Shown: positions 34,413 to 51,997 of the stretch, piece by piece
Position numbering within the stretch: the stretch's first letter is position 1
Layout: every line of letters begins with the position of its first letter
Source of the DNA: Thermoplasmatota archaeon
GTDB lineage: Archaea > Thermoplasmatota > Thermoplasmata > Halarchaeoplasmatales > Halarchaeoplasmataceae
Assembly (NCBI GenBank): GCA_018334755.1
Contig: JAGXLI010000002.1
Coordinates: 1-61,700, forward strand
Reading direction: 5' to 3'
Length of the DNA stretch: 61,700 nt
The notes under the pieces: generated by a model
Told to the model about the DNA's origin: nothing
The model's database searches: none
What the model saw: only the letters and a program-made list of their open reading frames with translations
Translations under genes and position numbers: made by a program

Positions 34413-35441
34413 TCACTTTGCTACGTCCAGATCGAATTCTATCTCTCCGGCGAAGTGGCATTTAGCCGTGTGTTCTTTTTCGATTTCCTTTTCCTCTGGC
34501 TCCTCCTTCTTACATATCTCCTCGGCATGTGGACATCTCGGGTGGAACCTGCATCCACTCGGTACCTGTGTCGCTGAGGGGACGTCACCCGTTATCGGCA
34601 CATTTTTGACACCTTGACCTCTTTCCGGGTCAGGCTCTGGAACCGCCACCAGCAGTGCCTGAGTATATGGATGCATCGGATTGTCTAGGACGTCTTCTAC
34701 TCTTCCTTTTTCAACAAGATCCCCTAGATACATCACACCTATATAATCAGTGAAGAATCTAGTTGTAGATATATCGTGGGTGATGTAGAAGTAAGTTACA
34801 TCCTCTTCCTCTATAAGGTCCTTCATAAGGTTGAGGATCTCTGCCCTTACGGAGACATCGAGCATGGAGACTGGTTCGTCTGCCACGATAAAGTCCGGAT
34901 TCAATATCATCGCCCTGGCTAGAGACACTCTCTGTTTTTGCCCACCAGAAAGCATATGAGGATACCTTCGGAGGAATTTCTCAGGAGGTGTAAGCCTGAC
35001 CTCTTCCAAGGCCTCCTTGACCATATCGGTCCTTTCTTCTCTCGTATCTCCTAGATTATGGATCATCAAAGGTTCCTCAAGTATGGTCCTTATCCTATCT
35101 CTCGGGTCTAGAGCGGAGAAAGGATCCTGATAGATTATCTGTGTTGTTCTTCTGTATGCTTTTAACTGCTGTTTGCTGTCCATGTCGGCTATATCCTTGT
35201 CTTTCATGTACATATGACCATCTGTAGGGTCTAACAACCGCATCATAAGTTTTCCGACCGTTGTCTTCCCACATCCGGATTCGCCGACTATCGAAAAGTT
35301 CCTCTTCTGATATATATCGAAGTCGATCCCGTCAACAGCCCTAACCTTCAACTTTTCTTCTCCCTTGAGTTTCTGGAAAAAGGATTGCGTCACGTCGAAA
35401 TGCTTCGTTAAGTTCCTAGCTTTAAATAATGGATCTGCCAT
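34413..35441 (-). CDS. dppF: oligopeptide/dipeptide ABC transporter ATPase (OppF/DppF type)
   Basis: This 342-residue protein has Walker [10 protein letters not shown], signature [16 protein letters not shown], Walker B FIVADEPVSMLDVS and the family C-terminal zinc/iron-sulfur-like segment [17 protein letters not shown]. It is the second of two ATPases of a peptide importer and would sit on the inner face of the membrane with the permeases encoded upstream. The gap to the partner ATPase gene is 3 bases. The acidic C-terminus is short. It is the last gene of the transporter operon; T-rich minus-strand sequence follows at about 34355-34395. Substrate class (peptides) is inferred from family and from the nearby protease. 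Confidence 0.94.
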   Translation of the reverse strand: MADPLFKARNLTKHFDVTQSFFQKLKGEEKLKVRAVDGIDFDIYQKRNFSIVGESGCGKTTVGKLMMRLLDPTDGHMYMKDKDIADMDSKQQLKAYRRTTQIIYQDPFSALDPRDRIRTILEEPLMIHNLGDTREERTDMVKEALEEVRLTPPEKFLRRYPHMLSGGQKQRVSLARAMILNPDFIVADEPVSMLDVSVRAEILNLMKDLIEEEDVTYFYITHDISTTRFFTDYIGVMYLGDLVEKGRVEDVLDNPMHPYTQALLVAVPEPDPERGQGVKNVPITGDVPSATQVPSGCRFHPRCPHAEEICKKEEPEEKEIEKEHTAKCHFAGEIEFDLDVAK

Positions 35442-35444
35442 ATT

Positions 35445-36557
35445 TTACTCCTCCATTACTTCATCTTCAGTTTCGGTCATTCCGGTCTCGTCGAGTTCTC
35501 TCTTGCCTTCTTCTCCTTCGTAGGCCTCTGCTGCTGCTTCATCCTCATAGGCGGTATCGTATTCGGCTTCCTGACTCTCAGCGATAGATTCGTCTTCACT
35601 GTAAAGATGACATTTGACATTGACACCGTCTACCTCATGTATCTCGGGTTCCATCTCTTTACAGACTTCCATGGCCTTATGGCATCGGGGATGGAAACGA
35701 CAGCCGCTCGGTGGATTCACTAGGTTGGGTGGAACTCCGGGGATGTATTCTAGTCGCTCTATATCAGTACGGATATCCGGAATTGCGGCCATAAGTTTCT
35801 CAGTATATGGATGCTTTGGATCCTTGTAGATATCATAGGCCTCGCCGAACTCGACGATCCAGCCCGCATACATTATCGCCAGATTATCTGAGACCTCTGC
35901 CAAGATACTCAGGTCGTGAGTTATGAAAATCATGGAAATGTCCAATTCTCTTCTGAGCCGCTTGAGATCGTTCATTATCCGGGCTTCCACCACCACGTCG
36001 AGAGCAGTGGTCGGCTCGTCCAGTATCACCAAGTTCGGTTCCAAAAGCAGGGCCGTAGCTATTATCACCCTCTGCTTTTGGCCGCCGCTAAGCTCGTGGG
36101 GATACCTATCGAATATTGCGCCTTCTAAGTTGACCAACTCCAGATATCTTTCACATATCTCTCTAGCCTTTTCTCCAGTGATCCCTTTATGATACTTGAG
36201 AGGTTCCTTCATCTGATGACCCACTGAATATACCGGGGTCATGATCTCCATAGCGCCCTGGAAGACCATTGATACCTTTTTCCATCTGATCTTCTCTCTC
36301 GCCTCTGATTCTGAGAGGTCAGTGACTTCTATGCCGTCTAGATTTATCGAACCACTCATTATCTGGCCAGGGGGCTGCACTTGATTTAACAGAGAGAACG
36401 CAAGGGTGCTCTTACCGCAGCCTGATTCCCCTGCTATCCCTATAGAGGCCCCTCTATCTAGAGAGAAGGTGGCGTCATCGAGGGCCTTCACCTCACCGTC
36501 GGTCGTCAGGTAATGGGTCGTCAAATCCTTGACTTCTAATATAGTGTCATCGTCCAT
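35445..36557 (-). CDS. dppD: oligopeptide/dipeptide ABC transporter ATPase (OppD/DppD type)
   Basis: This 370-residue protein has Walker [11 protein letters not shown], signature [15 protein letters not shown], Walker [14 protein letters not shown] and the C-terminal [17 protein letters not shown] typical of the Opp/Dpp ATPases. The last about 60 residues are an extra acidic tail ([14 protein letters not shown]) not needed for the fold. It pairs with the OppF-type ATPase encoded 3 bases downstream; the dppC-like permease gene ends 5 bases upstream, so three genes are tightly packed in one operon. Confidence 0.94.
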
Positions 36558-36562
36558 CTATC

Positions 36563-38959
36563 TCACCTTTGCTTCATCTTAGGATTGATAATCCTTTCGA
36601 TAGCCATACCGGTCGAGATGAATCCGAAACCTACCAAGATCATCCCGAGACCAGGGAAGAGTATCCAGAACCAGGATTTTGAGGGATTCATTACAGCTCC
36701 GCTGTCTCTTGCTTGCGTCAATAATGTTCCCCAGGTAACTATGCTCGGATCTCCTAGCCCAAGTATATGTAGACCGGCTTCCGCCATGATCACGATCGGA
36801 ACAAGCAGGGCCGCTTGAGCTATCGCATAGGGCAAGATCTGGGGGATCATGTGCTTAACGATTATTCTACCCGAGCCGGAGCCAAGAGATTCAGCGGCCT
36901 CGATATAGGTATCCTGGGCGACCTGAAGACCCCTGGATCGGATAACTTTTGCAGCTCCACGCCACATCAACAGGGAATAGATCAGCACGAAAACCCATAT
37001 GCTGTTATTCCAGAATTGGAGCGTGATGATCAGTATGGGTAACGTAGGTATACCCATCAGTATCTCATTGATCCTCTGCATCAATTCGTCCACCCAGCCG
37101 CCATAATATGCACTCGTCATGCCGAATAGTGTACCGAAGATCACTGTTGTTATAGCAACAAGTCCTCCTGCTATAAGTCCATATCTTGCGCCCCAGACCC
37201 AACCTTGGAATATATCACGGCGGCCTGAGTCCGTACCTAATATACCGAAAACGGCACCTGCGATCGTCAGTTTTGCATCATCTACATTTAACCCAACACC
37301 TTCCAATGTAACATTGATCTTATACTCACCCTTTTCAGGTTCGGGATCGCTGAGCCATGTTTTGCTCCTGTTAGAGAAGATGATCTCAGTGGGACTGACA
37401 TCTTGGCTTTCGGGGTATAGATCAGGATTTTCGTCTACGGGATAATCGCTCCTCAACCAGCTTCTAACATTCTTATATATATTATCTCTTGTATGACCAC
37501 TCCTCTCGATCGTTATCTTTTCAGTGAAGTCTCCAAAACCGTAGCCCCGATAGTTGTTTTCTATCTGCTCCATCGTATGACCGTCGGGTCTCTCGATATT
37601 TATGATCCTATCCTGGTAATTGGCCGCACTACCGCTGAATTGGATGAATATATCTTTGGGAACGATATCGGCCTGCATGTCGTAGGTGAAACTTAACGTC
37701 TGAACTTGGGATGTCCCCCTTCTAGGGACTATGGTCTTCGCTATCTCTTCGCCGTCAACAAGAAGGGATATATTTTGTCTCTGCTCAATCTCATTCACTA
37801 CCTCAAAATCAATAGGGATAGTCGAGCCGTTTTCTATTGTATAAGGGGGACGGGCCATCCAGTTGATCTCTATGTTGGTACCTACATCCTGTTCAAGACC
37901 GTCATCAGCTCCTGTTCCGGCGGATAGTAGTTCAGAGCCTTCCTCTGTGTCTTCTTCCGATTCCTCTCCCGTCGCAATGATAGTCTTAGTTTTGGAACCC
38001 ATTATCAGCGTATAAGTTCCTTTTTCTTCGAACTGCGGCTGATTAGAAGTCACTGTATCTCGTTCACCGGGACCCAAAGTCCACTCGCCAAATACCGAGT
38101 CATCTTCTTTACTTCTCAACCGGATCGTTTGCTCTTCATCTCCAAAGTTCCTTAGTTCAGCTTGAACACTAACGTCGATAGGGGCGTCTCCCTCTAAAGG
38201 AGAAGCGGTAAATGAAGTTACTCTGATGTCGTTTCCTACCTTAACGACCTCAGCTTTATCAGCAAGAGCGACTGAATACAGACCATATACCTTGAAGGTG
38301 TAGGTAGGTGTCAGGGTTCTCTCCTCACCGGGGTCTAATTCCCAAGTGTAGTTCTCGTCTAAACTTACATCTCTCCTAGCCCCATCTATTTCCAGAGATA
38401 CATTTCTACTCTCATCTTCCCCGGTATGTTCTACAGCTGCTACGACCTCAACCATGAGCGGAGCACGTTCCTCGGGGGCGGTCTCTTCCACAGGGTTGAC
38501 TTCAAGGCTATTGACCGTTATATTCTCATACGGATTTTCCCTTTCCTCGACCGTAACCTGCCGCTGTTCAATCACGGTATCAGAATCCGAATGAACGATC
38601 GATATATTTACATCGCCGGTTTCTTGAAAGCCATACTCGCTCCGCAGGGTGATATTCCCCGGTAGAGGATACAAGTCTCTCTTATCCGTGAGTTCATAAT
38701 CATTAATTTCCTCCTGGTGGGCATAATCTTCAGTGGTGAGCCAGTCGACCCAGTGAGGAGGTGCATTTGCTGGGTTAGATTCCCATCTATCTGCAGATTG
38801 ATCCCATTCCTCGGGAGCGTTAGGTGCTATAATAGGTGCAAGAACTCCGATTATCACCATGAACGTGATTATACTTACACCGATTATCCCGATCTTATGT
38901 TGCTTGAACTCTCCTAGCACTTCGACTATATTCGCCTTCAGATCATCCCAATGGACCAT
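36563..38959 (-). CDS. dppC: DppC-type permease with a large inserted extracytoplasmic Ig-like region
   Basis: The protein has 798 residues against about 300 for the family. The N-terminal membrane helix (IGIIGVSIITFMVIIGVLAPIIA) is normal. About 470 extracytoplasmic residues with several Ig-like beta units (for example SPLEGDAPIDVSVQAELRN and ERTLTPTYTFKVYGLYSVAL) and many N-glycosylation-type sites follow. The standard permease then resumes at FGILGTDSGRRDIFQGW with the remaining helices and the ATPase-docking EAA loop EAAESLGSGSGRIIVKHMIP. The insertion faces outside, where the binding protein docks. It shares module style with the C-terminal part of the binding protein. It is in an operon with both ATPases and the other permease. 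Confidence 0.93.
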   Translation of the reverse strand: MVHWDDLKANIVEVLGEFKQHKIGIIGVSIITFMVIIGVLAPIIAPNAPEEWDQSADRWESNPANAPPHWVDWLTTEDYAHQEEINDYELTDKRDLYPLPGNITLRSEYGFQETGDVNISIVHSDSDTVIEQRQVTVEERENPYENITVNSLEVNPVEETAPEERAPLMVEVVAAVEHTGEDESRNVSLEIDGARRDVSLDENYTWELDPGEERTLTPTYTFKVYGLYSVALADKAEVVKVGNDIRVTSFTASPLEGDAPIDVSVQAELRNFGDEEQTIRLRSKEDDSVFGEWTLGPGERDTVTSNQPQFEEKGTYTLIMGSKTKTIIATGEESEEDTEEGSELLSAGTGADDGLEQDVGTNIEINWMARPPYTIENGSTIPIDFEVVNEIEQRQNISLLVDGEEIAKTIVPRRGTSQVQTLSFTYDMQADIVPKDIFIQFSGSAANYQDRIINIERPDGHTMEQIENNYRGYGFGDFTEKITIERSGHTRDNIYKNVRSWLRSDYPVDENPDLYPESQDVSPTEIIFSNRSKTWLSDPEPEKGEYKINVTLEGVGLNVDDAKLTIAGAVFGILGTDSGRRDIFQGWVWGARYGLIAGGLVAITTVIFGTLFGMTSAYYGGWVDELMQRINEILMGIPTLPILIITLQFWNNSIWVFVLIYSLLMWRGAAKVIRSRGLQVAQDTYIEAAESLGSGSGRIIVKHMIPQILPYAIAQAALLVPIVIMAEAGLHILGLGDPSIVTWGTLLTQARDSGAVMNPSKSWFWILFPGLGMILVGFGFISTGMAIERIINPKMKQR

Positions 38960-38977: not shown

Positions 38978-40051
38978 TTATCCTCCTACTTGGCTTCCGG
39001 CTCCAACTTCAACTCTTGGATCCAAGAAACCATAGATTAGGTCCGCTATGTAGTAACCGAATACGTAGAGGAAAGCCGTTATGAATGAGATACCCAATAT
39101 AACTTGGACATCGGAATATGTGAATATAGCTCGTCTCAGCAACATGCCCATCCCTGGCCATGCGAAGACGATCTCTGAGATCATCGCACCACCTACCGAC
39201 ATCAGCAGCGCCATTATCGCTGACGTGATGACAGGAGGAGCCGCGGTCTTAAGAGTATGACCGTAAATCACTTTCCGTTCTGGTACTCCTTTAGCCCTTG
39301 CAGCCATTATGTAATCATCCTGGAGGATACCAGTTACGATATTTCTAGTCGTCCACGCTCTCCCACCGAATAGAACAAAGACTATAGTGATCAGAGGAAG
39401 AGTCATCTTTGTCAACAATTCTTGTAGGTAGGTAGCAAATCCCAATTCTTCCATACTAGGGAATTGAGGACTAGGTGCTGGCAACCATCCCAGCGTAAAA
39501 ACGAAAATTAGGATGGCTATCATACCTACCCACCACATGGGCATCGAAGAGGCTGTCATCCCGAACAGAGATAGAAATTTATCCAATTTTGAGCCAGCTC
39601 TCTGAGCGGCTTTCAGACCTACGGCGATACCTAACGAGGTGTATATAACTGCAGCCGTAGTGAATAAAAGGATCGTATTAGGAAGATAATCCATGATTAT
39701 GTCTAGGACGTCACTAGATCCAGAAGAGGGGGCCGTCATATCTGATTGGGCATTTCCAAAATCAAGCATCAAAATATCCGTAGCTGAGTAAAAGACCCTA
39801 AGATACCTCGGTTTATCTAAATTGTAACGGGACCTCAATTCTGCTCTTCTTCGATTCCGGAACTCTCTCATTTCTTCTTTACTATCGAAATTTTTTTCCT
39901 GCATCTCCCCTCTTAATTTTTGATCGATTATACCCTGGAGCTCTTTCTCGGCCATAGTACTGTAAGCAGCAGACAATATGAATACCACTATGACGAGCAC
40001 TATCAGCATATTGACAGTCCTCAAGGCAAAATACTTCCATGAAGCTGGCAT
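38978..40051 (-). CDS. dppB: DppB-type peptide ABC transporter permease
   Basis: This 357-residue protein has an N-terminal membrane helix, a charged external loop (about 35-85, with the Arg-rich MREFRNRRRAELRSRYN) and a normal six-helix permease core with EAA loop MAARAKGVPERKVIYGHTLK. Its size is close to the family norm, unlike its partner DppC. A TTTATATCC box at 40081-40089 and a GTGAT motif before the ATG show that the permease-ATPase operon has its own promoter, separate from the binding-protein gene upstream. It forms the membrane channel with DppC. Confidence 0.94.
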   Translation of the reverse strand: MPASWKYFALRTVNMLIVLVIVVFILSAAYSTMAEKELQGIIDQKLRGEMQEKNFDSKEEMREFRNRRRAELRSRYNLDKPRYLRVFYSATDILMLDFGNAQSDMTAPSSGSSDVLDIIMDYLPNTILLFTTAAVIYTSLGIAVGLKAAQRAGSKLDKFLSLFGMTASSMPMWWVGMIAILIFVFTLGWLPAPSPQFPSMEELGFATYLQELLTKMTLPLITIVFVLFGGRAWTTRNIVTGILQDDYIMAARAKGVPERKVIYGHTLKTAAPPVITSAIMALLMSVGGAMISEIVFAWPGMGMLLRRAIFTYSDVQVILGISFITAFLYVFGYYIADLIYGFLDPRVEVGAGSQVGG

Positions 40052-40429: not shown

Positions 40430-43400
40430 CTAACGGTTCTCTTTTTTGTTGTAGTAGATTGCTACAGCGATCACGGCACCGATTATCAGGAGTGCAAACG
40501 TGAAGCCTGGTCCGTCGCCGCCATCGTCGTCGTCGCCGCCGTCTCCGTCTTCTTCTTCAGCGAATGTAGCGGTTATGTCCATGTCGTCAGTGATCTCTAC
40601 CTGTATCTCTCTACCGGATTCAGATGCTCCGGTCCAACTGTCGAATGTGTAACCTTCGTCTGCGGTCGCGTTGAGTGTGACGGTAGTTCCTTCTTCGTAT
40701 TCTTGGGTCCATCCGTCCGTTACTTCTTGTCCGTCTACTGTTACAGTTCCGTTACCATCTACGTTCACGGTCAGGTTGTAGTACTCGACCGGGATCATTT
40801 CGAAGTGTGCTGTTATGTTCTTGTCACTGTCCATCGTTATGGTGACATTCTTGTCCGTGCCTTGATAGTCGCCTGTCCATTCTACGAACTGGTTACCATC
40901 GTCAGGCATCGCCGTCAGGTTGACTTCAGAACCTTCAACGTATTCGGTCTGATCCGGTTCGAGTTCTACCGTTCCATTTCCTTCAACGTCCGTGTTGAGT
41001 GTGAACATGTCGAGGACATTGACGGTTTCCTCCAACATCGTCACGTCAACACTTTCGTCTCTTAACTGTACTGCTATGTCGCCTGCTGTATCGAACGTGT
41101 GATCCGTGCTGAAATTGCTAGTTTCTCCAGCCGGGATCGTCTCTGTGTGTATGACGTTTCCTTCTACAGCTATGGATGCGTTGGCGTCTGTATCCATCGG
41201 GTTCTCGACTTCAGCCGTGATTGTGCCAGAGTCTCCGACCACGAGCTCTTCCGGAGCCGTGAGACTGTTAGCTGACAGTTCTGAAACACCGACCGTTGCC
41301 GACATGCTTCCGAAGGTGACTATGTATTCGCCTACATCCTGGAACGTTGTGTCGAAGGACATGTTCGCAGATTCAGCCACAGGTACGGTCAGTACATTTT
41401 CTTCTTGACCGTTGATTTCGAAGGGCATGTCTGCTTCAAGATCGGCCGATTCCACCGTAAATGTGCTCTGTTCTTCTCCGATACTTACCGTGTATTCACC
41501 GGCTTGAGTGAAGTCGTAAAGGTCGAGACCTTCGACGGTCGCGCCTCCAGCTGCGTTTACTGTAAGGACTTCCTCGGTGACCATACTGCCGTCTCTCATC
41601 ACTGTTAGTGATATATTGCCGTCTATGTTACCGTCATTTCGGACAGCTATATCCAGATATACACCTGGGTTGTGAGCTTCTCCGAAGATCGTCACGTTGA
41701 GTGGAGCACGTCCAGTTAGAGGTTCAACATCCAGCATTTGAGCGTTGACCTCACCGTACCTCGGGTCAACTTCGAAACCAGTGACCTGGATGTCAGCTCC
41801 TTCGACGGTCGTTTCTTCTCTTCCGAGCAAGGTGTCCGATTGATCTCTGAGGTCGACATCGAACGTTCCTATGTTTTCAAATGTGTGATCAACAGTGAAT
41901 GCTCGAGTCTCGCCCTGTGGAACGGTTTCTTCGTGGAGTAGGGTATCACCTAGATAAACTGATGCGGTATCGCTTTCACTGCCAGTGTTTGAAACATTGA
42001 CATTTATAGTTCCAACTTCGCCCTGTGGGACCGTTTCTGGAACCTCGAACGTATTGACCTCAAAGTTCGTGTCAGGTGGCAAGAGAACTATCGTCGTACT
42101 GATGGTCGTCCACGAGGGACTTCCTGTCTCTTTGGCTTCCAGCATCAATTGACGATGCCCGGGAGCCAGTCCTTGCGTGGAGATCGTGGCTTCGAAAGCG
42201 GAATAACCATCCTGAGGTGTCAAGGTGATATTCTCACTCGGGACTTCGTGTATTATCGCACCATCATCATCTCTGATAGTGAATCGATAGTCCGCCAGAT
42301 TATTCTCATTTATCGCTTCAGTTCCGGTCTCTGGGAACGTCAGCTGAATGAAACCTTCTCCACTAGCTTGGAAGTCAGTGCCTATGTCTATGTATCGATC
42401 AGCATTCAATTGGTCCATTTCAATATTTGCAATTTCGAACTGCTCTGACCAGTAACCGTATGGCTGAGTATAGTCAGGATCGCCGGATGTGTCAAATGGA
42501 TATCCGTATTGATCCCATCTCTCTAACGTCATCTCTCCTTTATCGGTACCAGTTATGACGAAAGGTCCACAGCCTATGAAAGTATGCTGATGATTGTTGA
42601 CGAAATCGGATAGACTGTTCAACTCGGTCTCCATCTCGGTAGCGTCGGCCGGTATGGGAGCGTTATTCTCTGCTTTGAGATAGTGCGGTACCCAATCGTC
42701 ATTTATCATCTGGTTCCATATGTCCACTACATCGCTAGAATGGGATGCTGACAACTGATGTAGCCATTCGGATCCCTGTACGGGTTCGTAGTTGTAAGAA
42801 GTACCAACCGTGAATTCCGTCCCATCTCCTCCGTGCAAGTGATCCATTGCGTCGTAGACCATAGGATGCACTTCTGGGAATATAGAATGGAAGCTGCCTA
42901 TCTTGTCTTCGATCGGGAACTGATAATTGCTCCAAACGGTGTACTGTCCTTCTGCTTGGTTGAAATCTATAGCAACGACCTTGTCGTAGAACGGACCGGC
43001 TGAGTCTGCATGCGATTGTAAGAATGGATCATGAGCGTCATCAGCCAATTGCTTTTCTCTTGCATACCCGGCCATTATATCCTGAAGTGAGAAATCCGTG
43101 CCATCATGCCATGTATGATCGGTGTGGACATCATAGGTCACTTTGACAGCCGACTCCTGTGATTCTCCATAGTAATCCTGCATATTCTGCCATGCTCGAT
43201 CTTCCGTGTTGTAGTTCAACGCGGAATCTGGCACGCTCAGAGTGTCGCCTTCTGGTGCTATCTCTACACTTCCGTTCCTCTCGTAAGGATCGGTATCTCT
43301 ACCTTCGGACCAGTAAGTGTTCACTTCCATGGGTATACCGGTCTGTGGATTTAGCCATGAACCGTATTCTCTGGCCATCCTTCGCTGGTATTCTCCGTAA

Positions 43401-44767
43401 ACGTCGCTAGATCCTCCGTACAGGTTCCAGTTATCCATGTATGGGGCTTCCGAACCTGTTAGCAGGGTTGAATCCAACACACCATCATCGATCCTCATAG
43501 TACGCGGACCGAAATAGGTGTCGTATCCATTCACAGATTCTGTCACCGCGGTCTCTAGTGTACTTTCATCATAGGCGTAGAAGCTCAGATCGGTCACGAG
43601 GAAAACTCTGATCGCTTGCTCAACACCAAGCTGAGCACCTTCTACCATCAGATCCCAGTATTCCGATTCATTTCCGAAATTGCCCTGGTAAAGCTGCAGA
43701 CCTATCTGATCCAACTTCTGGACCTGCGGAGTGTAACCTTCTTGATCGTACTGGTAGTGTCCTTCTGCTCCGTATACTTGCGTGAAACCATACCATGGAG
43801 CGTACATCTGGCTCAACGGAACTTCCTGATAATATTGAGTCGCCGTGCCTATCCAACCGCCGGTGTAGATATGGTAAGCTACGTTATCGTACGGTTCTGG
43901 ATCAGCGAAGAAACACAGAGATATGGCCGTATCGGACGTCCTTTCCATCACTTCGACGTTGAAATGACTGTTTTCCAACTTTGTCTGCATGTAGAATCCT
44001 AGATCGGATCTCCAGTCCTCAGTCCTAGCGAAGATCTTCAGGGTGATATCTTTCCAGTCGCCATTAGGAGCCTTGTACTGCCAGTTTCCATCTTTTCTTA
44101 CTTCTCCGAAAGCTACGTTGTTCTTTATCTCGTCCATGGCACTCTGGATCAGATCGTATCCTTTATCGAAGTCTCCTTCCGGAGTCAGATCATATTTTTG
44201 TTCGATCCCTTCGACAAAGTATTCACTCCATACTGCAGACTGGGCACTCATGAATGCATATCTTGGCCTCGCGAAACCATCACGAAGGTCCTGGTTTATC
44301 TCCTGTCTGCTCATTATGTAGTTCTGGGCGAATCTTATCTGCTTATGAGCGAACGGATTGATAGTCCATTCTCCGTTCAGATCGTTGACCACATACTGAA
44401 CGTCGTTGGGGTCGTTGATCCATCCGTTACTCACGGCAGTCTCGATCGCCTCAGTTCCATTTCCTTCATGGGCCGGATTTATGAGCATGTTGTTGTAACT
44501 GCCCCCTACATCCCAGGTACTCAACTGGGACTTCCAGTCATCCGGCAGACCTGAGTAGGTTTTAGCACCTACACTATGCATGAAAAGATCTAGATCGCCT
44601 GTTGCTACTTCACCGAGCGCTGTTTCCATATCCAAGTGTACCGTCAGGTTTACTTTATCTATTAGTTGTCCATCTTGACCTCTAGCGGGTTCTGACGCCG
44701 CCGTTGCTAAGCCACCGGTTATCAAAACCGATACCATTAGCAGAGGTATTATTTTTTTCCATTTCAT
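40430..44767 (-). CDS. giant membrane-anchored peptide-binding protein (SBP family 5, apparently circularly permuted) with Ig-like and InlB-type repeats
   Basis: The protein has 1445 residues: a signal peptide (IIPLLMVSVLITGGLATAA), then the binding fold, Ig-like modules (about 805-1240), two InlB/Listeria-type repeats (about 1250-1400) and a C-terminal helix (FTFALLIIGAVIAVAIYY) with a basic end. Elements normally in the C-terminal half of family 5 come first: EVATGDLDLF (about 53-62) and FAHKQIRFAQNYIMSRQEI (139-157). Those normally N-terminal come later: NWNLYGG with LNPQTGIP (about 446-479), TWHDGTDFSLQDIMAGY (552-568) and IGCGPFVITG with YGYWSEQ (731-776). It should capture peptides at the cell surface for the transporter downstream. 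A strong GGAGGT and TTTAAATA promoter suggest high expression. Confidence 0.9.
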   Translation of the reverse strand: MKWKKIIPLLMVSVLITGGLATAASEPARGQDGQLIDKVNLTVHLDMETALGEVATGDLDLFMHSVGAKTYSGLPDDWKSQLSTWDVGGSYNNMLINPAHEGNGTEAIETAVSNGWINDPNDVQYVVNDLNGEWTINPFAHKQIRFAQNYIMSRQEINQDLRDGFARPRYAFMSAQSAVWSEYFVEGIEQKYDLTPEGDFDKGYDLIQSAMDEIKNNVAFGEVRKDGNWQYKAPNGDWKDITLKIFARTEDWRSDLGFYMQTKLENSHFNVEVMERTSDTAISLCFFADPEPYDNVAYHIYTGGWIGTATQYYQEVPLSQMYAPWYGFTQVYGAEGHYQYDQEGYTPQVQKLDQIGLQLYQGNFGNESEYWDLMVEGAQLGVEQAIRVFLVTDLSFYAYDESTLETAVTESVNGYDTYFGPRTMRIDDGVLDSTLLTGSEAPYMDNWNLYGGSSDVYGEYQRRMAREYGSWLNPQTGIPMEVNTYWSEGRDTDPYERNGSVEIAPEGDTLSVPDSALNYNTEDRAWQNMQDYYGESQESAVKVTYDVHTDHTWHDGTDFSLQDIMAGYAREKQLADDAHDPFLQSHADSAGPFYDKVVAIDFNQAEGQYTVWSNYQFPIEDKIGSFHSIFPEVHPMVYDAMDHLHGGDGTEFTVGTSYNYEPVQGSEWLHQLSASHSSDVVDIWNQMINDDWVPHYLKAENNAPIPADATEMETELNSLSDFVNNHQHTFIGCGPFVITGTDKGEMTLERWDQYGYPFDTSGDPDYTQPYGYWSEQFEIANIEMDQLNADRYIDIGTDFQASGEGFIQLTFPETGTEAINENNLADYRFTIRDDDGAIIHEVPSENITLTPQDGYSAFEATISTQGLAPGHRQLMLEAKETGSPSWTTISTTIVLLPPDTNFEVNTFEVPETVPQGEVGTINVNVSNTGSESDTASVYLGDTLLHEETVPQGETRAFTVDHTFENIGTFDVDLRDQSDTLLGREETTVEGADIQVTGFEVDPRYGEVNAQMLDVEPLTGRAPLNVTIFGEAHNPGVYLDIAVRNDGNIDGNISLTVMRDGSMVTEEVLTVNAAGGATVEGLDLYDFTQAGEYTVSIGEEQSTFTVESADLEADMPFEINGQEENVLTVPVAESANMSFDTTFQDVGEYIVTFGSMSATVGVSELSANSLTAPEELVVGDSGTITAEVENPMDTDANASIAVEGNVIHTETIPAGETSNFSTDHTFDTAGDIAVQLRDESVDVTMLEETVNVLDMFTLNTDVEGNGTVELEPDQTEYVEGSEVNLTAMPDDGNQFVEWTGDYQGTDKNVTITMDSDKNITAHFEMIPVEYYNLTVNVDGNGTVTVDGQEVTDGWTQEYEEGTTVTLNATADEGYTFDSWTGASESGREIQVEITDDMDITATFAEEEDGDGGDDDDGGDGPGFTFALLIIGAVIAVAIYYNKKENR

Positions 44768-44894: not shown

Positions 44895-46205
44895 TTACTT
44901 CTTATCTTCCCATTCCTTCTCTGAAAAAAGGACCACAAGAACCGCTACAGCTAAAATTATCGGCAGATAGGTCCGATAGATCGTCCTATCTCCTTCAGAT
45001 GCTCCTAGAGCATATACATTGTTGTCATACGAACCAAAATAAAGGTAACCTTCAGATGAAATGGCAGGAGACGATATGATGTTGCCCTCTGTCTCCACTC
45101 TCCATCTTTCCGTACCGTTAGGATAAAGACTGTAAAGATTGTTATCGTGAGAGCCAAAGTAGATCATACCCTCTGGGCCTATCGCCGGGGATGATAACAC
45201 GGATCCGTTTGTTTCGAAAGTCCATTTTTCCTCACCGTCCGGATTTAGGGCATACAACCTGTGATCGCCGGAACCCACATATATGGTGCCTTCGGGGCCT
45301 ATCGCGGGAGATGAGAAGATATCGCCGCGAGTGGTGAAATTCCACAGCTCTTTTCCATGCTGGTTGAGTGCGTACAATCTATTATCATAAGAACCAAAAT
45401 AGATCGTTCCGTCTTCTGCTAAAGCAGGAGAAGAGAGGACCTGACCCCCTATATTTGGTACACGAAAATCCCATATTTTTTTACCTTCGGAATCTAACGC
45501 GATCAGCTGCCCGAAACGTCCTCCAAAGACCCTGACCTCATATCCAAAATATATATTTCCGTTTTCATCTACAGCGGGGGTCGATATCACCGATCCAGAA
45601 AATTTATTGGTGTAGTTCCACTCGATGTTTCCTTCTGAATCGAGACAATAAAGAGTTCGGTTGGCCGAACCTAACAATATAGAACCGTCCTCCCTGACCA
45701 CGGGAGAAGAAATTATAGCCCGCTCGAAAGGCTCCTCTAGGACCCACCTTTCAGTCCCATCTGGATCGAGGGAGTAAAATCTTCCCTCCACTGTCCCGAA
45801 ATATATCGTACCGTTCTCCGTAACCGCCGGGGTGGTAGAGATTACGGCAGAAGCATCGAACTTCCATTTCTCTCCTCCATCCGGGCTAAGAGCATAGAGA
45901 AAACCATCTCTAGATCCTACGTAAACTGTTCCTTCCGGACCGATAGAAGGAGAACTGTCTATCTTGTCATCCGTCGAATACTTCCAGGATACCTCAGAGG
46001 AGGGTTCGCGCTCAGCTTCTTCATTTCTACCCGTATTGGAAAGACCTCCTCTGAACATCGACCATGAGTCTGAGGGGCTATCTGAAGACTGGACAGTCAG
46101 GGAAAAGGTTGAAATTAGTAAGAGTGAAGCTAGAAGGATAATAATTAGATGTCTAATTCTCTTTTTTATGAGTTCTTTTAAATCCTGTCTTTTTGAGAGG
46201 CTCAT
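44895..46205 (-). CDS. membrane-anchored PQQ-type beta-propeller protein
   Basis: The protein has 436 residues from ATG 46205, chosen because ATAAATAATT lies 27 bases upstream. An N-terminal helix (HLIIILLASLLLISTFSL) is followed by about eight repeats of roughly 40 residues of the form SSPAIGPEGTIYVGSGDHRLY, then ALNPDGEEKWTF, the PQQ/BamB-like blade. A C-terminal helix (YLPIILAVAVLVVLFS) anchors it. The blades are unusually regular. No PQQ-binding catalytic residues are evident, so a scaffold or binding role outside the cell is more likely than dehydrogenase activity. It lies between the protease and binding-protein genes, all on the minus strand. Confidence 0.88.
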   Translation of the reverse strand: MSLSKRQDLKELIKKRIRHLIIILLASLLLISTFSLTVQSSDSPSDSWSMFRGGLSNTGRNEEAEREPSSEVSWKYSTDDKIDSSPSIGPEGTVYVGSRDGFLYALSPDGGEKWKFDASAVISTTPAVTENGTIYFGTVEGRFYSLDPDGTERWVLEEPFERAIISSPVVREDGSILLGSANRTLYCLDSEGNIEWNYTNKFSGSVISTPAVDENGNIYFGYEVRVFGGRFGQLIALDSEGKKIWDFRVPNIGGQVLSSPALAEDGTIYFGSYDNRLYALNQHGKELWNFTTRGDIFSSPAIGPEGTIYVGSGDHRLYALNPDGEEKWTFETNGSVLSSPAIGPEGMIYFGSHDNNLYSLYPNGTERWRVETEGNIISSPAISSEGYLYFGSYDNNVYALGASEGDRTIYRTYLPIILAVAVLVVLFSEKEWEDKK

Positions 46206-46330
46206 ATGGAGAGTACATCGTTTTGAATTATTTATCTTTTGGCAAAAATGATCAGAAAGTTGCAAGTTAAAAATGGCTGTCATCTATCGAGTGGGTTATC
46301 GAAAACATAGGAGCGATAAAACAAAGTTGA

Positions 46331-46387: not shown

Positions 46388-49300
46388 TTATTCTTCTTCT
46401 TCTTCGAAGAACTCTGGTTCTTCCTCTTCTTCTTCAGTTTCCTCGAAGAGGTCTTCACCGGGTTCTTCTTCCTCTTCTTCTGTCTCTTCGAAAAGATCTC
46501 CTTCAGGTTCTTCTTCCTCTTCTTCTGTCTCTTCGAAGATCTCTTCTTCTGTCTCTTCTGGTTCTCCTGTACCACCTTGTTGCATCTTTCCTTTGAGGGC
46601 CATGTAGACTCCTGCGACCAGGATGATCATCAAGATGAGCAGACCTATCATTCCGCCGTATAGCATCTGCTCTAACGTATCAAAGTCATCTTGGCTTGCC
46701 TTGTCTTGTTCTTCCTCACCTGTAGAATCTGTTTCTAGATCTTCTACTCGGTTTTGGAGGTTATCGACGTCAGTTTGTAGCTGATCGATATCATCTATGT
46801 CATTTTCTAAAGTATTCACGCGCTTCTGTAGATTCTGTAAGTCCTGTTGGTCCGCTTTTTCTGTGTCAAGATCATCTAGGTCAGACCGCAACTCGTCTAT
46901 TTGGTTCTGCAGTTCTTGGATGTCTATATCGTCAAGTTCCGCTTGTAGGGTGTTGACATCTTCTTGCAGGCTACCAACGTCGTTCTCCAAGTTCCTTATC
47001 CTGACTTCGAGGACGTCTAAATCAGTTTGGAAGTCGTCCAAACGAGCCTCAAGATCAGTTATCCTGCCATCAAGTTCTCCTATCTCGGTGTCAAGTCGAT
47101 CTATCTCATCATAGAGCTCTGTGATGTCGTTCTCCATCTCGTCCAGCCGTGTTCTTATCTCGTTGAGATCCGCGTCGGTAAGATACGGTGAATCATACGT
47201 GATGGTGAACTGTTCTTCTGCCATGTTACCAGCTTTGTCAGCGACCTTTACCGTTACGTCGTTTGCACCGTCGGTCAGGCTCACTTTTCTCTTGTATAGC
47301 TGATCACTGCCTAGGTCGGCTTCAGCCCCGTTGACCATGACTTCTAGGTCTGCTTTTTCTGCATGATCGTCGGAGACATCGACCTTTATGGTGGCACTGC
47401 TACGTCCAGTACTTTCAGGATAATCTAACAGGTCTATCGTCGGAGCGTTGGCATCGTAGATCACGTTCCTGATCTCCTTGATACTGTTTCCATATCCATC
47501 CGTTGCGTTGAAGATCAGTTGATTGGTTCCTTCATCGAGATCAATGTTAGCCCATATGTCACCATTATCTCTGACGTATACCTCTTCACCGTTGACTTCA
47601 ACTGTCGATCCAGGCATGACCCACGAATTCCTTATGTTCAAGGTCTCCTCGTTGGTCCAGGTAGGCAGTTCTTCTATACCCATCCTCAGCGTATCGATGT
47701 ACAAGTTAGTAGGTTCCGAAGTGATCTCATTTCCGGCTTCGTCGACTGTTTCTACGGTCATTTCGTGTGTCGTGCCGTCGAAACCCATCATGGAGTTGGC
47801 TTTGTAAGCATCGACGTAAACTTCGCCATTTATCGCCGAAGAAGTGTAAGCTTCATCCGGGATGGGTTTTCCGTCAAAGTAAACCGTTGTTTCTGCTGGT
47901 AGGAATCCGCTATAGAATACCGGGTCGCTGTATTCGTAAACCAAGGTATGTCCCGGTTCCGATATCGTTGTGGGAGTTCCCTCGGCTAGTCCCATGCTAC
48001 CTGGTACGCCGTCATTCAATGTTATCGTTGGTTCGAGCACGAGACCTCTACTGAAGTTCTCGCGGCCGATCCCTATCCAGGTTCCGTAAGTGCCCTGTGA
48101 GGCCGGTAGGGTGTAATTGATCTGGAATGTGACTACATCACCAGCCGTGAAAGAGTCAGGGGCATCGATCTCCCATGAGATCCCTGGCACTTCTATCGTC
48201 TTTGATATCTCGGCCGTGAATTCATCTCCTGCTGTACCTTCGTATGGATTGATACATACCCAGTAGATACCATCTTGTGGATTGTCGAGCACTATAGATT
48301 CCATGGAACCCATGGTTCCAGAGGTAGCTACTAAAGTGTCGTCCATATCCGGTTCCCCGTTACCGTTCGCATCTCTAAGGAGTCCCATATCAAGGTCCGG
48401 AGCTTCAGCAGCAACTATCTCTGCTGCGAACGAACTCACGTCCTGCATCGTGACTTCTTTCTGGGTCGCCTTTTTAACGAAGTATGCTTTGCCCCATCCA
48501 GCATTACCGGGTCCGGTCGTATCCACCCAGGTCTCCGTTTCTGTTACGGACGGAGGCGCACTGACAGGCTCTACAGGATCAGCATCGAAGCCAGCCGTGG
48601 TCACATATTTCAGCGTTCCGGATGTGTACTCATCGGCTTCTGTCTGAGAAGTGATAGTGTACTCTTCGTCGTACTCGTTATCCTTTTCGCCTACAGTGAA
48701 GAGCTGTCCTTCGAAAGCTTCGTCTTCGGCCATTCCTAAACTGTGTACTGCGACCGCATATACGCCCTTATCTAGAGGTCCGTCAGTGACGAATCCCATG
48801 TTATCTTTCACTGTATCGGTGGTCTGCATCACTTCAAGGTTGTACATACCGTATCTTGAGCCTACCATCCCACTAAATGCGTCTGGTTCTTCTGCTGGAC
48901 CTAAAAGGTAAGCTTCGACATCCATAGAACCGTTGAGGTTCAGATTCATCGCTACAGGTGAGTTAGTGCCTGCTTCTAAGTTGAAGTGGAACCTTCTCCA
49001 GGATCCAGTTGCTCCACCACTGTGAGCACCGTAAAGGCGGTCGTTCCTGTATATCCCTTTTTCATAATCTTGATTTCCGTCGTTCGCTCCGAATTCCATA
49101 TCGAAGCGGCCGTTGGTTACTGCTAATGAATCGCCTACCGTTATCGTTACAGGTACGACATTGACTCGACCTGTATCGACATTTTCTATCATCACTTTTC
49201 CACCGTAGACGCCTTGACCTGCATCTCCAGGTACGTCTGCGGTCAGGTTGTATTCGACAGTGTCGTCTGCGGGTACCGTTCCAGTTGCATTATCGACAGA

Positions 49301-51997
49301 TATCCAGTCCCATGTGACTTCATTGTACTGCCTGATCGTCAGGTCGAATTCAAAGGAAGGCAATCCAAAGTTCCTCAGCCTCACGATGATGCCGTCTTCT
49401 ACTCTATCGATCGGATTATAGATGCTGGAGTAATCGTTTGTCTGGTCATTATAGGCTGCCCATTGATATCCTATCCTGTTCCTCTCATCGGTTCCGTTGT
49501 AGTTCTCATCGCCATCTACGTCGGTCCAATGGTGGGTTTCTAGAAGACTTATACCTCCCGCTTCGGCTGCATGTGTTTCAAATCTGAACAGATCAGCGTT
49601 AGGTGCTTCTAGAGCTTCCCTAAATTCTGCTGACCAGTTAGTGATATTGCCTTCATCGTCAGTGACCGGTACTAGATCGTAGATCCCTGTTTCATTTATC
49701 ATCAACGCCGGATGTGTTTCTACACCGCTCGACATCGTCAACTCATTGACTCCGTCCTCCTGTAATTGGGTCGCCTCAACCGAATAATCTACAGGATCGG
49801 TCTGATTTCTGTTTTCGAGTGAGAAAGATTCCTTCTCAGTATCTCCTGGGTTCATCATATTGACATGCATATCGGTAGAAGTCCCTGTTGTAGGGTTCGT
49901 TCCGGGTCTCCATTCCGATGTTGAGGAGAGTAGACCTTCTTCCTGTGCTATCTCGACCGCTCCTTCTGCATCGAGTAGCCCAGATCCTTGATTGTAAGGC
50001 GAATTATTGATGTCTTGGGCTCCCTGCTTGATGAAGTCCTTGACCTGCATCGCGGTCGGCCTGGTACCGTGAGCTTCCCAGTAAGCCTGGTAAGCAAGAG
50101 CTGCCACGCCCGCCGTGTTCGGCGCTGCTAGGCTAGTACCTGACCAAAGTTCCCATGAATAGGCACCGTAGAATTGTCCAAAATCAAAGGCCATCTGATT
50201 CACAGGGATACTGCCGTAACCGAATTCTGCATTGGCTAGAACGTCGACGCCCTGTGTTCCTCTACCTGCTGGCCCTCTACTGCCTACGTGGGCTACTTCG
50301 CCCTGCCATGGATTTGGCCCTTCATCAGATTCATACCACGGATCTGTCCTGTAGTACTGATTCGAAGCTCCTCCTGCGGACAGGACCGCTTCTCCACCTG
50401 ACGGGGAACCGAGAGTACCAAAGGCGGTGCCTTCGTTACCCGCCGAATTAACGAACAAAGTACTCTGGGTGTGGTAAGTGCCGACATAATCGAACAATCT
50501 CTCATAATAATCGTAGCCGCCAAACGTTGCATAACCGGAGGTCTTACCGAAACTGCTGGAAGCTATCTGAGCCTGGTCAGCATTCGTTGAGGTATTTCCG
50601 TCGTATCCTTCGGACGCGAAGAATATGGAAGAATACGGCACGTCATAAAGCGACAGAGCATTTCCTGGCGAAGTGAAGAAATCTCCCATCGGGATGATAT
50701 CAGATTCCGGAGCAAGGCCCTGTATGAGACCGTCACCAGAACCCGGGGGATAAGCACCAGGATATCCAGTCATACCTTGGCCCGCAACGGCGGAAGCCGT
50801 TCTAGTTCCGTGGGTTCCGTAAGACGTAGGACCGTTGAAATCTCCCATCAAAGCGACCATCTCACCGGGATCCGGCGTGTTGTGATAGTCAAGTTCTAAC
50901 AAAGACCATGCATCATCACCAGTAATCATTTCCAATGTCCCTGGCGGATATCCTAACGCCAAGTTAATCATCGTGTTCATCGTCTCTCTAAATTGCTCGT
51001 TCTGGGTGTAAGGTATCGGCATATTTTCTCCAGTAGCGTTCTCTTCGGCGATGAAGTAAGCCATTCCACCAGAGATATCCGTTATTCCGTCACCGGTCAC
51101 ATCTTTCGTCATCAGTTCAGATGTTGGTTCGGTTCCGTCGATATAAGCTGGATCTTCATCTGAGAAGTTCCTATCGTTATCAAGGTCAGTGTAGACGTTT
51201 GACCATTCTCCTCCGTCCTTCGTCAAAAGGACCGCCGGTCGTTCTCCATAGTGCTGGTTTAACTTTTCGTCGGGATGCAGACCGAATCTTACCTTGTCGC
51301 CCTCGCTTATAGCATCTGGCATCTCATAGATATGATCTCCTACCGGTTTATCACCGTGAATCGCGAAAATCGTACCGTTATCATCATAAGCTGTGGCTTC
51401 ATAACTAGTATCGACGTACCAGTTAGCTTCTGATGCGTCTCCGCTGACCACGTACTCGGCCATAGAGACCGCGTCGTAAGCTATCGGATATCCATCGAAC
51501 TGCTCCATCTCTGGCTCCATCGTTGCCGCGTCATATTCAAAGACAGCGTGTCTTCCTGCCAGGTCAGGATGGGCCATATCGAAGCCGGTATCCATCAATG
51601 AAACGGTAACGTCTTGTCCCTCTATCCCCATGCTATGTACAGGATCGACATTGTGTAAATCCTTGGTATGAGGGTCAGTCCTTACTTTTTCATCTCTAGT
51701 CGGGTTTGTTTCGCCCTTTATCTTCTGCTGTTTCTCTTCTGAAACGACTTGAGGCTTTCTCTGTATCCCATTCTTGTCAAATTCCTTCTGTAGCTGTTTC
51801 ATCCTTTTTTGCACTTCTTCCATAGATGGAGTATTTTCCATCTCTGGAGCGCTCTTTTCATCGTCAACCGTGGGTGAGTCTCCTTGAGATTCCTCTGCAG
51901 AGACTACCGCAGTAGCCGCTGTAAGAACGGACATCAGTAAAAGTCCCGCCACTACAACGGTCATTACCATCTTCTTTTTATCTTTCTTTTCATTCAT
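46388..51997 (-). CDS. giant cell-surface subtilisin (S8) protease with coiled-coil stalk, membrane anchor and acidic repeat tail
   Basis: The protein has 1869 residues. Signal peptide at about 9-33, then a propeptide. The catalytic triad is Asp136 (SLMDTGFDMAHPDL), His396 (SYGTHGTRTASAVAG) and Ser622 (WSGTSLAAPNTAG), with oxyanion Asn in FVNSAGNEG. Asp and His are 260 residues apart, so there is a large insert like that in pyrolysin/TPPII-type enzymes. Beta domains follow to about 1600, then a near-continuous coiled coil (about 1608-1757), one membrane helix (about 1779-1802) and a Glu-rich cytoplasmic tail of three 15-residue repeats. The coiled coil would hold the protease away from the membrane. 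GGAGGAAAAAAAATG and a strong TATA box suggest high expression. Confidence 0.94.
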   Translation of the reverse strand: MNEKKDKKKMVMTVVVAGLLLMSVLTAATAVVSAEESQGDSPTVDDEKSAPEMENTPSMEEVQKRMKQLQKEFDKNGIQRKPQVVSEEKQQKIKGETNPTRDEKVRTDPHTKDLHNVDPVHSMGIEGQDVTVSLMDTGFDMAHPDLAGRHAVFEYDAATMEPEMEQFDGYPIAYDAVSMAEYVVSGDASEANWYVDTSYEATAYDDNGTIFAIHGDKPVGDHIYEMPDAISEGDKVRFGLHPDEKLNQHYGERPAVLLTKDGGEWSNVYTDLDNDRNFSDEDPAYIDGTEPTSELMTKDVTGDGITDISGGMAYFIAEENATGENMPIPYTQNEQFRETMNTMINLALGYPPGTLEMITGDDAWSLLELDYHNTPDPGEMVALMGDFNGPTSYGTHGTRTASAVAGQGMTGYPGAYPPGSGDGLIQGLAPESDIIPMGDFFTSPGNALSLYDVPYSSIFFASEGYDGNTSTNADQAQIASSSFGKTSGYATFGGYDYYERLFDYVGTYHTQSTLFVNSAGNEGTAFGTLGSPSGGEAVLSAGGASNQYYRTDPWYESDEGPNPWQGEVAHVGSRGPAGRGTQGVDVLANAEFGYGSIPVNQMAFDFGQFYGAYSWELWSGTSLAAPNTAGVAALAYQAYWEAHGTRPTAMQVKDFIKQGAQDINNSPYNQGSGLLDAEGAVEIAQEEGLLSSTSEWRPGTNPTTGTSTDMHVNMMNPGDTEKESFSLENRNQTDPVDYSVEATQLQEDGVNELTMSSGVETHPALMINETGIYDLVPVTDDEGNITNWSAEFREALEAPNADLFRFETHAAEAGGISLLETHHWTDVDGDENYNGTDERNRIGYQWAAYNDQTNDYSSIYNPIDRVEDGIIVRLRNFGLPSFEFDLTIRQYNEVTWDWISVDNATGTVPADDTVEYNLTADVPGDAGQGVYGGKVMIENVDTGRVNVVPVTITVGDSLAVTNGRFDMEFGANDGNQDYEKGIYRNDRLYGAHSGGATGSWRRFHFNLEAGTNSPVAMNLNLNGSMDVEAYLLGPAEEPDAFSGMVGSRYGMYNLEVMQTTDTVKDNMGFVTDGPLDKGVYAVAVHSLGMAEDEAFEGQLFTVGEKDNEYDEEYTITSQTEADEYTSGTLKYVTTAGFDADPVEPVSAPPSVTETETWVDTTGPGNAGWGKAYFVKKATQKEVTMQDVSSFAAEIVAAEAPDLDMGLLRDANGNGEPDMDDTLVATSGTMGSMESIVLDNPQDGIYWVCINPYEGTAGDEFTAEISKTIEVPGISWEIDAPDSFTAGDVVTFQINYTLPASQGTYGTWIGIGRENFSRGLVLEPTITLNDGVPGSMGLAEGTPTTISEPGHTLVYEYSDPVFYSGFLPAETTVYFDGKPIPDEAYTSSAINGEVYVDAYKANSMMGFDGTTHEMTVETVDEAGNEITSEPTNLYIDTLRMGIEELPTWTNEETLNIRNSWVMPGSTVEVNGEEVYVRDNGDIWANIDLDEGTNQLIFNATDGYGNSIKEIRNVIYDANAPTIDLLDYPESTGRSSATIKVDVSDDHAEKADLEVMVNGAEADLGSDQLYKRKVSLTDGANDVTVKVADKAGNMAEEQFTITYDSPYLTDADLNEIRTRLDEMENDITELYDEIDRLDTEIGELDGRITDLEARLDDFQTDLDVLEVRIRNLENDVGSLQEDVNTLQAELDDIDIQELQNQIDELRSDLDDLDTEKADQQDLQNLQKRVNTLENDIDDIDQLQTDVDNLQNRVEDLETDSTGEEEQDKASQDDFDTLEQMLYGGMIGLLILMIILVAGVYMALKGKMQQGGTGEPEETEEEIFEETEEEEEEPEGDLFEETEEEEEEPGEDLFEETEEEEEEPEFFEEEEE
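46391..46545 (-). repeat. 45-bp tandem repeats coding for the acidic tail of the protease
   Basis: The motif GGTTC on the plus strand recurs at 46416, 46461 and 46506, exactly 45 bases apart, inside near-identical stretches. Each unit codes for 15 residues (PEGDLFEETEEEE type). The frame is kept, so the tail can grow or shrink without breaking the protein. Confidence 0.75.

Follow-up and report, generated by a model that had tools for sequence, protein, structure and literature searches.

The nearest solved relative of P0001, the protein described here, is T. kodakarensis OppA (7FI3), a large archaeal OppA that holds a pentapeptide and was the sole PDB sequence match of P0001. The two proteins are homologous over both halves, but 7FI3 has the normal order: its chain residues 4-310 correspond to the B half of P0001 and residues 315-713 to the A half. 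P0001 and its relatives belong, by sequence match, to the same fold family as SBP_bac_5 (PF00496), which includes DppA, OppA, and NikA, and they differ from these proteins in having swapped halves and a length of ~840 aa or more, compared with ~500. Normal-order siblings also occur in two archaeal genomes, G511 and G590. These proteins of ~900 aa (N511 and N590) match both half-profiles of the P0001 family at 1e-30 to 1e-37 and are likewise accompanied by an OppC with a homologous insert, whereas their order is B then A and they carry a Thr-rich stalk and a TM segment. A "novel archaeal OppA subfamily" has been reported in Aeropyrum and Sulfolobus (Balestrieri 2011, cited in PMC10846266). Large OppAs of the N511/N590 type might be this subfamily. 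A topological rearrangement in the binding-protein superfamily, the "domain dislocation" between PBP type I and type II, is reported to have been described by Fukami-Kobayashi (1999); it is, however, an ancient exchange of core strands between classes and not a permutation within family 5.

P0001 is encoded in the window, by which we mean the whole 61,700-nucleotide stretch of DNA that was analysed. It is very likely a surface-anchored SBP of an OppABCDF-type importer with a circularly permuted family-5 (cluster C) fold, with ligand binding and transport being inferred. Upstream, the interval up to the neighbouring gene at 44895 leaves no room to encode a missing N-terminal half. The features of P0001 and of the operon downstream are as follows.

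40430-44767, minus strand: P0001 ORF, 1445 aa, ATG start.
44678-44767, minus strand: Sec-type signal peptide without a lipobox, residues 1-30 (sequence; hydropathy peak at residues 5-25; A half begins at residue 36).
43520-44662, minus strand: A half, equivalent to the C-terminal half of an ordinary family-5 SBP, residues 36-416 (PF00496 148-349; 7FI3 chain 333-588 and 662-713; N511 538-807).
43487-43519, minus strand: joint at about residues 417-427, where the ancestral C terminus is fused to the ancestral N terminus (located between the 7FI3 matches that end at 713 and start at 4; approximate boundary).
42437-43486, minus strand: B half, the normally N-terminal half, residues 428-777 (PF00496 19-140; 7FI3 chain 4-328; N511 52-377).
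42053-42436, minus strand: Ig-like beta-sandwich, about residues 778-905 (AlphaFold2 strands at 750-867 of the modelled piece; family alignment; FlgD_ig matches in relatives).
41018-42052, minus strand: further Ig/CARDB-like stalk domains, about residues 906-1250 (weak CARDB/A2M/Transglut_C matches).
40595-41002, minus strand: two InlB-type B repeats (Flg_new_2), residues 1256-1391 (PF18998, E = 1.2e-27).
40451-40507, minus strand: C-terminal transmembrane anchor, residues 1421-1439, then a basic tail (hydropathy; sequence).
38978-40051, minus strand: OppB/DppB permease (PF00528, E = 5.6e-30).
36563-38959, minus strand: OppC/DppC permease, 798 aa (PF12911, and PF00528 at 609-796).
37295-38845, minus strand: extracellular insert of OppC, residues 39-555 (insert HMM on residues 39-112 and 407-555).
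35445-36557, minus strand: OppD/DppD ATPase (PF00005 and PF08352).
34413-35441, minus strand: OppF/DppF ATPase (PF00005 and PF08352).

Directly upstream of P0001 lies a gene for a PQQ-type beta-propeller protein (44895-46283, minus), and also upstream is one for a secreted S8 subtilase of 1869 aa with Glucodextran_B and a coiled-coil C-terminus (46388-51997, minus). The module of InlB-type repeats and TM anchor (residues 1253-1443; 40439-41011) recurs in many ORFs of the genome at ~30-68% identity and represents a shared surface-anchoring tail.

The original prediction, made from the sequence alone, was that P0001 appears circularly permuted, with its motifs in reversed order. The reversed order held, with all of the quoted motifs in place: EVATGDLDLF at residues 53-62, FAHKQIRFAQNYIMSRQE at 139-156, NWNLYGG at 446-452, LNPQTGIP at 472-479, TWHDGTDFSLQDIMAGY at 552-568, IGCGPFVI at 731-738, and GYW at 771-773. 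The HDG..DIM, GCGPFVI, and GYW motifs are carried by the B half. PF00496 matched P0001 in two separate fragments: profile positions 148-349 fall on residues 36-308 (fragment E = 1.3e-5), and positions 19-140 fall on residues ~543-754 (fragment E = 0.022). Because the 148-349 fragment comes before the 19-140 fragment, the C-terminal part of the profile precedes the N-terminal part in P0001, which is what had been expected of the two halves. The score of 28.6-30.5 bits was just below the cut-off of 32.4, yet the E-value was below 1e-6. An HMM of normal-order relatives gave 15.1 and 14.0 bits on the two halves of P0001, against 8.0 and 7.9 for the best of 500 shuffles.

As these single-sequence scores were weak, the order was tested at the family level. 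PF00496 scored 50-97 bits on relatives of P0001, above the cut-off, and detected 51 of the 54 aligned members, Pfam picking up mainly the C-half. P0001 alone matched 7FI3 at E = 3.4e-21, with query residues 399-748 on chain 4-328, and 18-297 and 335-387 on chain 333-588 and 662-713 (query numbering begins at residue 30). The family profile matched at E = 1.5e-88, with positions 439-692 on chain 63-310 and 20-349 on chain 315-713. These segments match crossed, which puts the cut between residues 310 and 315 of the 7FI3 chain and shows the former ends joined to each other in the query. Crossed segments were also obtained in pairwise BLAST of P0001 with N511 (137-397 on 538-807, 5e-14; 436-738 on 52-377, 3e-6) and of four other permuted members with a normal-order sibling. 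In hhalign against a profile of normal-order relatives, the B-A order produced in silico aligned over 325 columns (score 156, E 3e-18), compared with 287 for the native order (129, 9e-15). Rotating the sequences brought no gain with a generic normal-order HMM (median -0.1 bits), since the A half by itself is already what local HMMER aligns; only the profile-profile comparison among these order tests revealed the B-A join.

The single-sequence evidence for swapped order in P0001 is modest, while the family-level evidence is overwhelming. Compared with its homologues, P0001 has complementary halves in swapped order, with one cut and the old termini joined. Circular permutation, as originally proposed, is supported by the agreement of Pfam, 7FI3, hhalign, and BLAST with normal-order siblings. 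Neither of the two observations named at the time as refuting it was made: two complete SBP domains in tandem were not found, each half occurring once in P0001 (A right after the signal peptide and B right before the Ig-like domain), and none of the permuted-family members checked showed the normal motif order.

AlphaFold2 with the family alignment gave confident models of P0001 residues 30-905 (pLDDT 87, pTM 0.87) and of a Symbiobacterium member (pLDDT 94, pTM 0.89). The top Foldseek match in the PDB for both models was 7FI3, over 392-418 columns. The other matches shown were family-5 SBPs, including binders of chitobiose, mannans, and nickel complexes, and mostly covered 310-400 columns of targets ~500 residues long, the TM-scores by target being near 0.45. 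Sequential Foldseek thus aligned about half of the predicted fold, an estimate read only from lengths and TM-scores, as the output lacked residue ranges. Partial coverage of this kind is what a sequential aligner should give on a permuted fold, although this reading rests on predicted models without an order-independent superposition.

The source genome holds two further copies of P0001 (70-72% identical), making three paralogues in all. The P0001 family was matched in 17 of the 61 genomes searched, including 15 of 16 from the window's own family. A scan of genome contigs with P0001 as a single sequence found nothing, and an alignment was needed; a 23-domain alignment led to 80 named loci, whose half order was then read with a separate profile for each half. 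Every named locus that keeps both halves reads A then B, and this order is kept across phyla at about 20% identity. The bacteria concerned include Halomonas, Thioalkalivibrio, Thiococcus, Methylotuvimicrobium buryatense, Symbiobacterium, Halanaerobiaceae, Clostridia, Anaerolineales (Anaerolineae), Armatimonadota, Bipolaricaulota, and others, and the archaea among the named loci include Bathyarchaeota, Caldarchaeum, and Calditenuis. Isolates with the permuted order include Halomonas species, M. buryatense 5G, and Thiococcus pfennigii. The phylum to which locus L125 ("Thermoprotei archaeon") belongs was represented by 250 genomes; the profile built in permuted order matched 174 of them at E<=1e-5 and 149 at E<1e-69, in most cases collinearly over >650 of 814 profile positions. 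The order was inspected singly in about 40 genomes of this phylum and was permuted in all those checked, apart from the named normal-order siblings. The family was scarce in Gammaproteobacteria (3/185) and elsewhere in the phylum of the window (2 other genomes of 293), where ordinary normal-order SBPs are abundant.

The Ig-like beta-sandwich after the B half is common to the aligned members. Bacterial members of ~840 aa are permuted and have a single Ig-like domain without a C-terminal anchor; many archaeal members add a TM anchor after this domain. The suggestion in the original prediction that permutation could relate to the very long C-terminal extension and to surface anchoring therefore failed, as these bacterial proteins are permuted without either, and the family proved wider than had been recognised. 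No permutation in family 5 was known to have been described when the prediction was made; none was found described in the open-access literature searched, and NCBIfam has no model for the permuted family. The 2011 paper on the archaeal OppA subfamily lay outside that scope, and an earlier description cannot be excluded.

Several loci showed variant arrangements. One 2026-aa ORF (L068 / L113, 1475-7552) consists of two complete permuted SBP units in tandem, and a Halanaerobiaceae bin (L172) has three consecutive permuted SBP genes ahead of one permease set. Permuted SBPs on contigs labelled Dojkabacteria and Nealsonbacteria (L107, L108) are nearest to the Thermoplasmata clade and are probably misbinned. 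Shorter proteins in G687 and G574 (L257, L258, L278; 717 aa in L258) begin with an A half, but a B half could not be detected in them and may be too divergent or lost.

A complete OppBCDF operon, with ATPases of the oligo_HPY type, lies downstream of P0001. The locus thus has the gene content that defines an Opp/Dpp ABC importer (OppB, OppC, and one or two such ATPases), and permeases were identified at other loci as well. The OppC insert, placed between TM1 and the core of the permease, is a conserved domain of ~178 aa without a Pfam match; it was found from Thermoplasmata to Methylotuvimicrobium and is split by CARDB/PKD-like repeats in the window's lineage. It was present in all 57 named permuted loci with a complete downstream OppC, compared with none of 14 OppCs beside ordinary SBPs, the insert HMM having been trained on 38 OppC sequences from the permuted set later tallied. 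This ectodomain is not peculiar to permuted systems: the normal-order siblings in G511 and G590 carry the insert, so it marks a larger transporter clade. In the same class, operons with giant normal-order SBPs (L235, L238, L240) encode OppCs of 677-757 aa with an unrelated insert at the same place, beta-propeller-like by eye. Neighbouring genes across loci gave no common clue to the substrate.

P0001 might instead consist of two incomplete SBP domains left by a decayed tandem duplication, folding separately or not. Duplication and trimming are the usual route to permutation, and tandem permuted copies do exist, as in the 2026-aa ORF. However, the halves are complementary, with the cut falling within about 5 residues in 7FI3; A then B is conserved across phyla at about 20% identity; the A and B pair is modelled together with pTM 0.87-0.89; and no B-A-B intermediate was seen among the loci fetched. 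Extra N-terminal stretches in L033 and L071 had no B match and were Ig-like by eye. We consider this explanation very unlikely. A misassembly or frame error in a single metagenome-derived genome is conceivable for a draft of 112 contigs, but is all but excluded by the permuted order of the three paralogues, many relatives, and isolates.

A different role for a permuted SBP is harder to dismiss. P0001 could bind another oligomer (a sugar or a metal chelate) or act mainly as a surface sensor or adhesin, and this remains possible. Family-5 SBPs bind many ligands, as the fold matches illustrate; the InlB-type repeats, which occur in many ORFs of the genome, might hint at a sensor or adhesin; and gene neighbours differ between loci. 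Against this stand the complete OppBCDF operon with oligo_HPY ATPases, the pentapeptide in 7FI3, and the adjacent secreted S8 protease.

For the preferred reading of P0001 as the permuted receptor of an Opp-type importer, computation has shown the swapped order, one cut point among the sampled members, a single confidently predicted fold, normal-order siblings, and the OppBCDF operon. Relative to T. kodakarensis OppA, the chain is opened immediately behind the ...GPF/Y...(YW) strand, and its original ends are joined, placing the C-half before the N-half. The permuted chain is inferred to fold into an ordinary two-lobe cleft and most likely binds peptides or a similar oligomeric ligand, an inference from T. 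kodakarensis OppA and the operon type without binding data. The C-terminal stalk and anchor would hold P0001 near the permease, where ligand would be handed to OppBC. The neighbouring secreted S8 protease would make peptides, which fits peptide scavenging.

In a tree of 85 permuted members, P0001 grouped with Thermoplasmata and Bipolaricaulota sequences in a clade separate from 72 others. The permutation probably arose once; this is inferred, and is favoured because the cut and the Ig domain are shared, but two long-branch members (L072, L197) leave a single origin unproven. Normal order is likely to be ancestral, again by inference, because it is found throughout family 5. The permutation would most likely have arisen within a large-OppA clade whose members already had an ectodomain-bearing OppC as their partner. 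A bolder reading, which we regard as unlikely as a whole, is that one ancient permutation gave rise to a distinct and successful type of ABC receptor in archaea and bacteria because the moved chain ends let the Ig stalk and anchor exit a new face and dock the OppC ectodomain, giving a different receptor-permease geometry.

Few receptors are as abundant or as well studied as the family-5 binding proteins, and yet a natural permutation of them, present in many bacteria and in scores of genomes of archaea, appears to be unannotated. This is a warning that fragment-style Pfam matches can hide whole receptors. The permuted and unpermuted siblings form natural matched pairs, with which one may probe the constraints that the position of the chain ends, the order of folding, and tethering place on a two-lobe receptor and on the way it docks to the permease.
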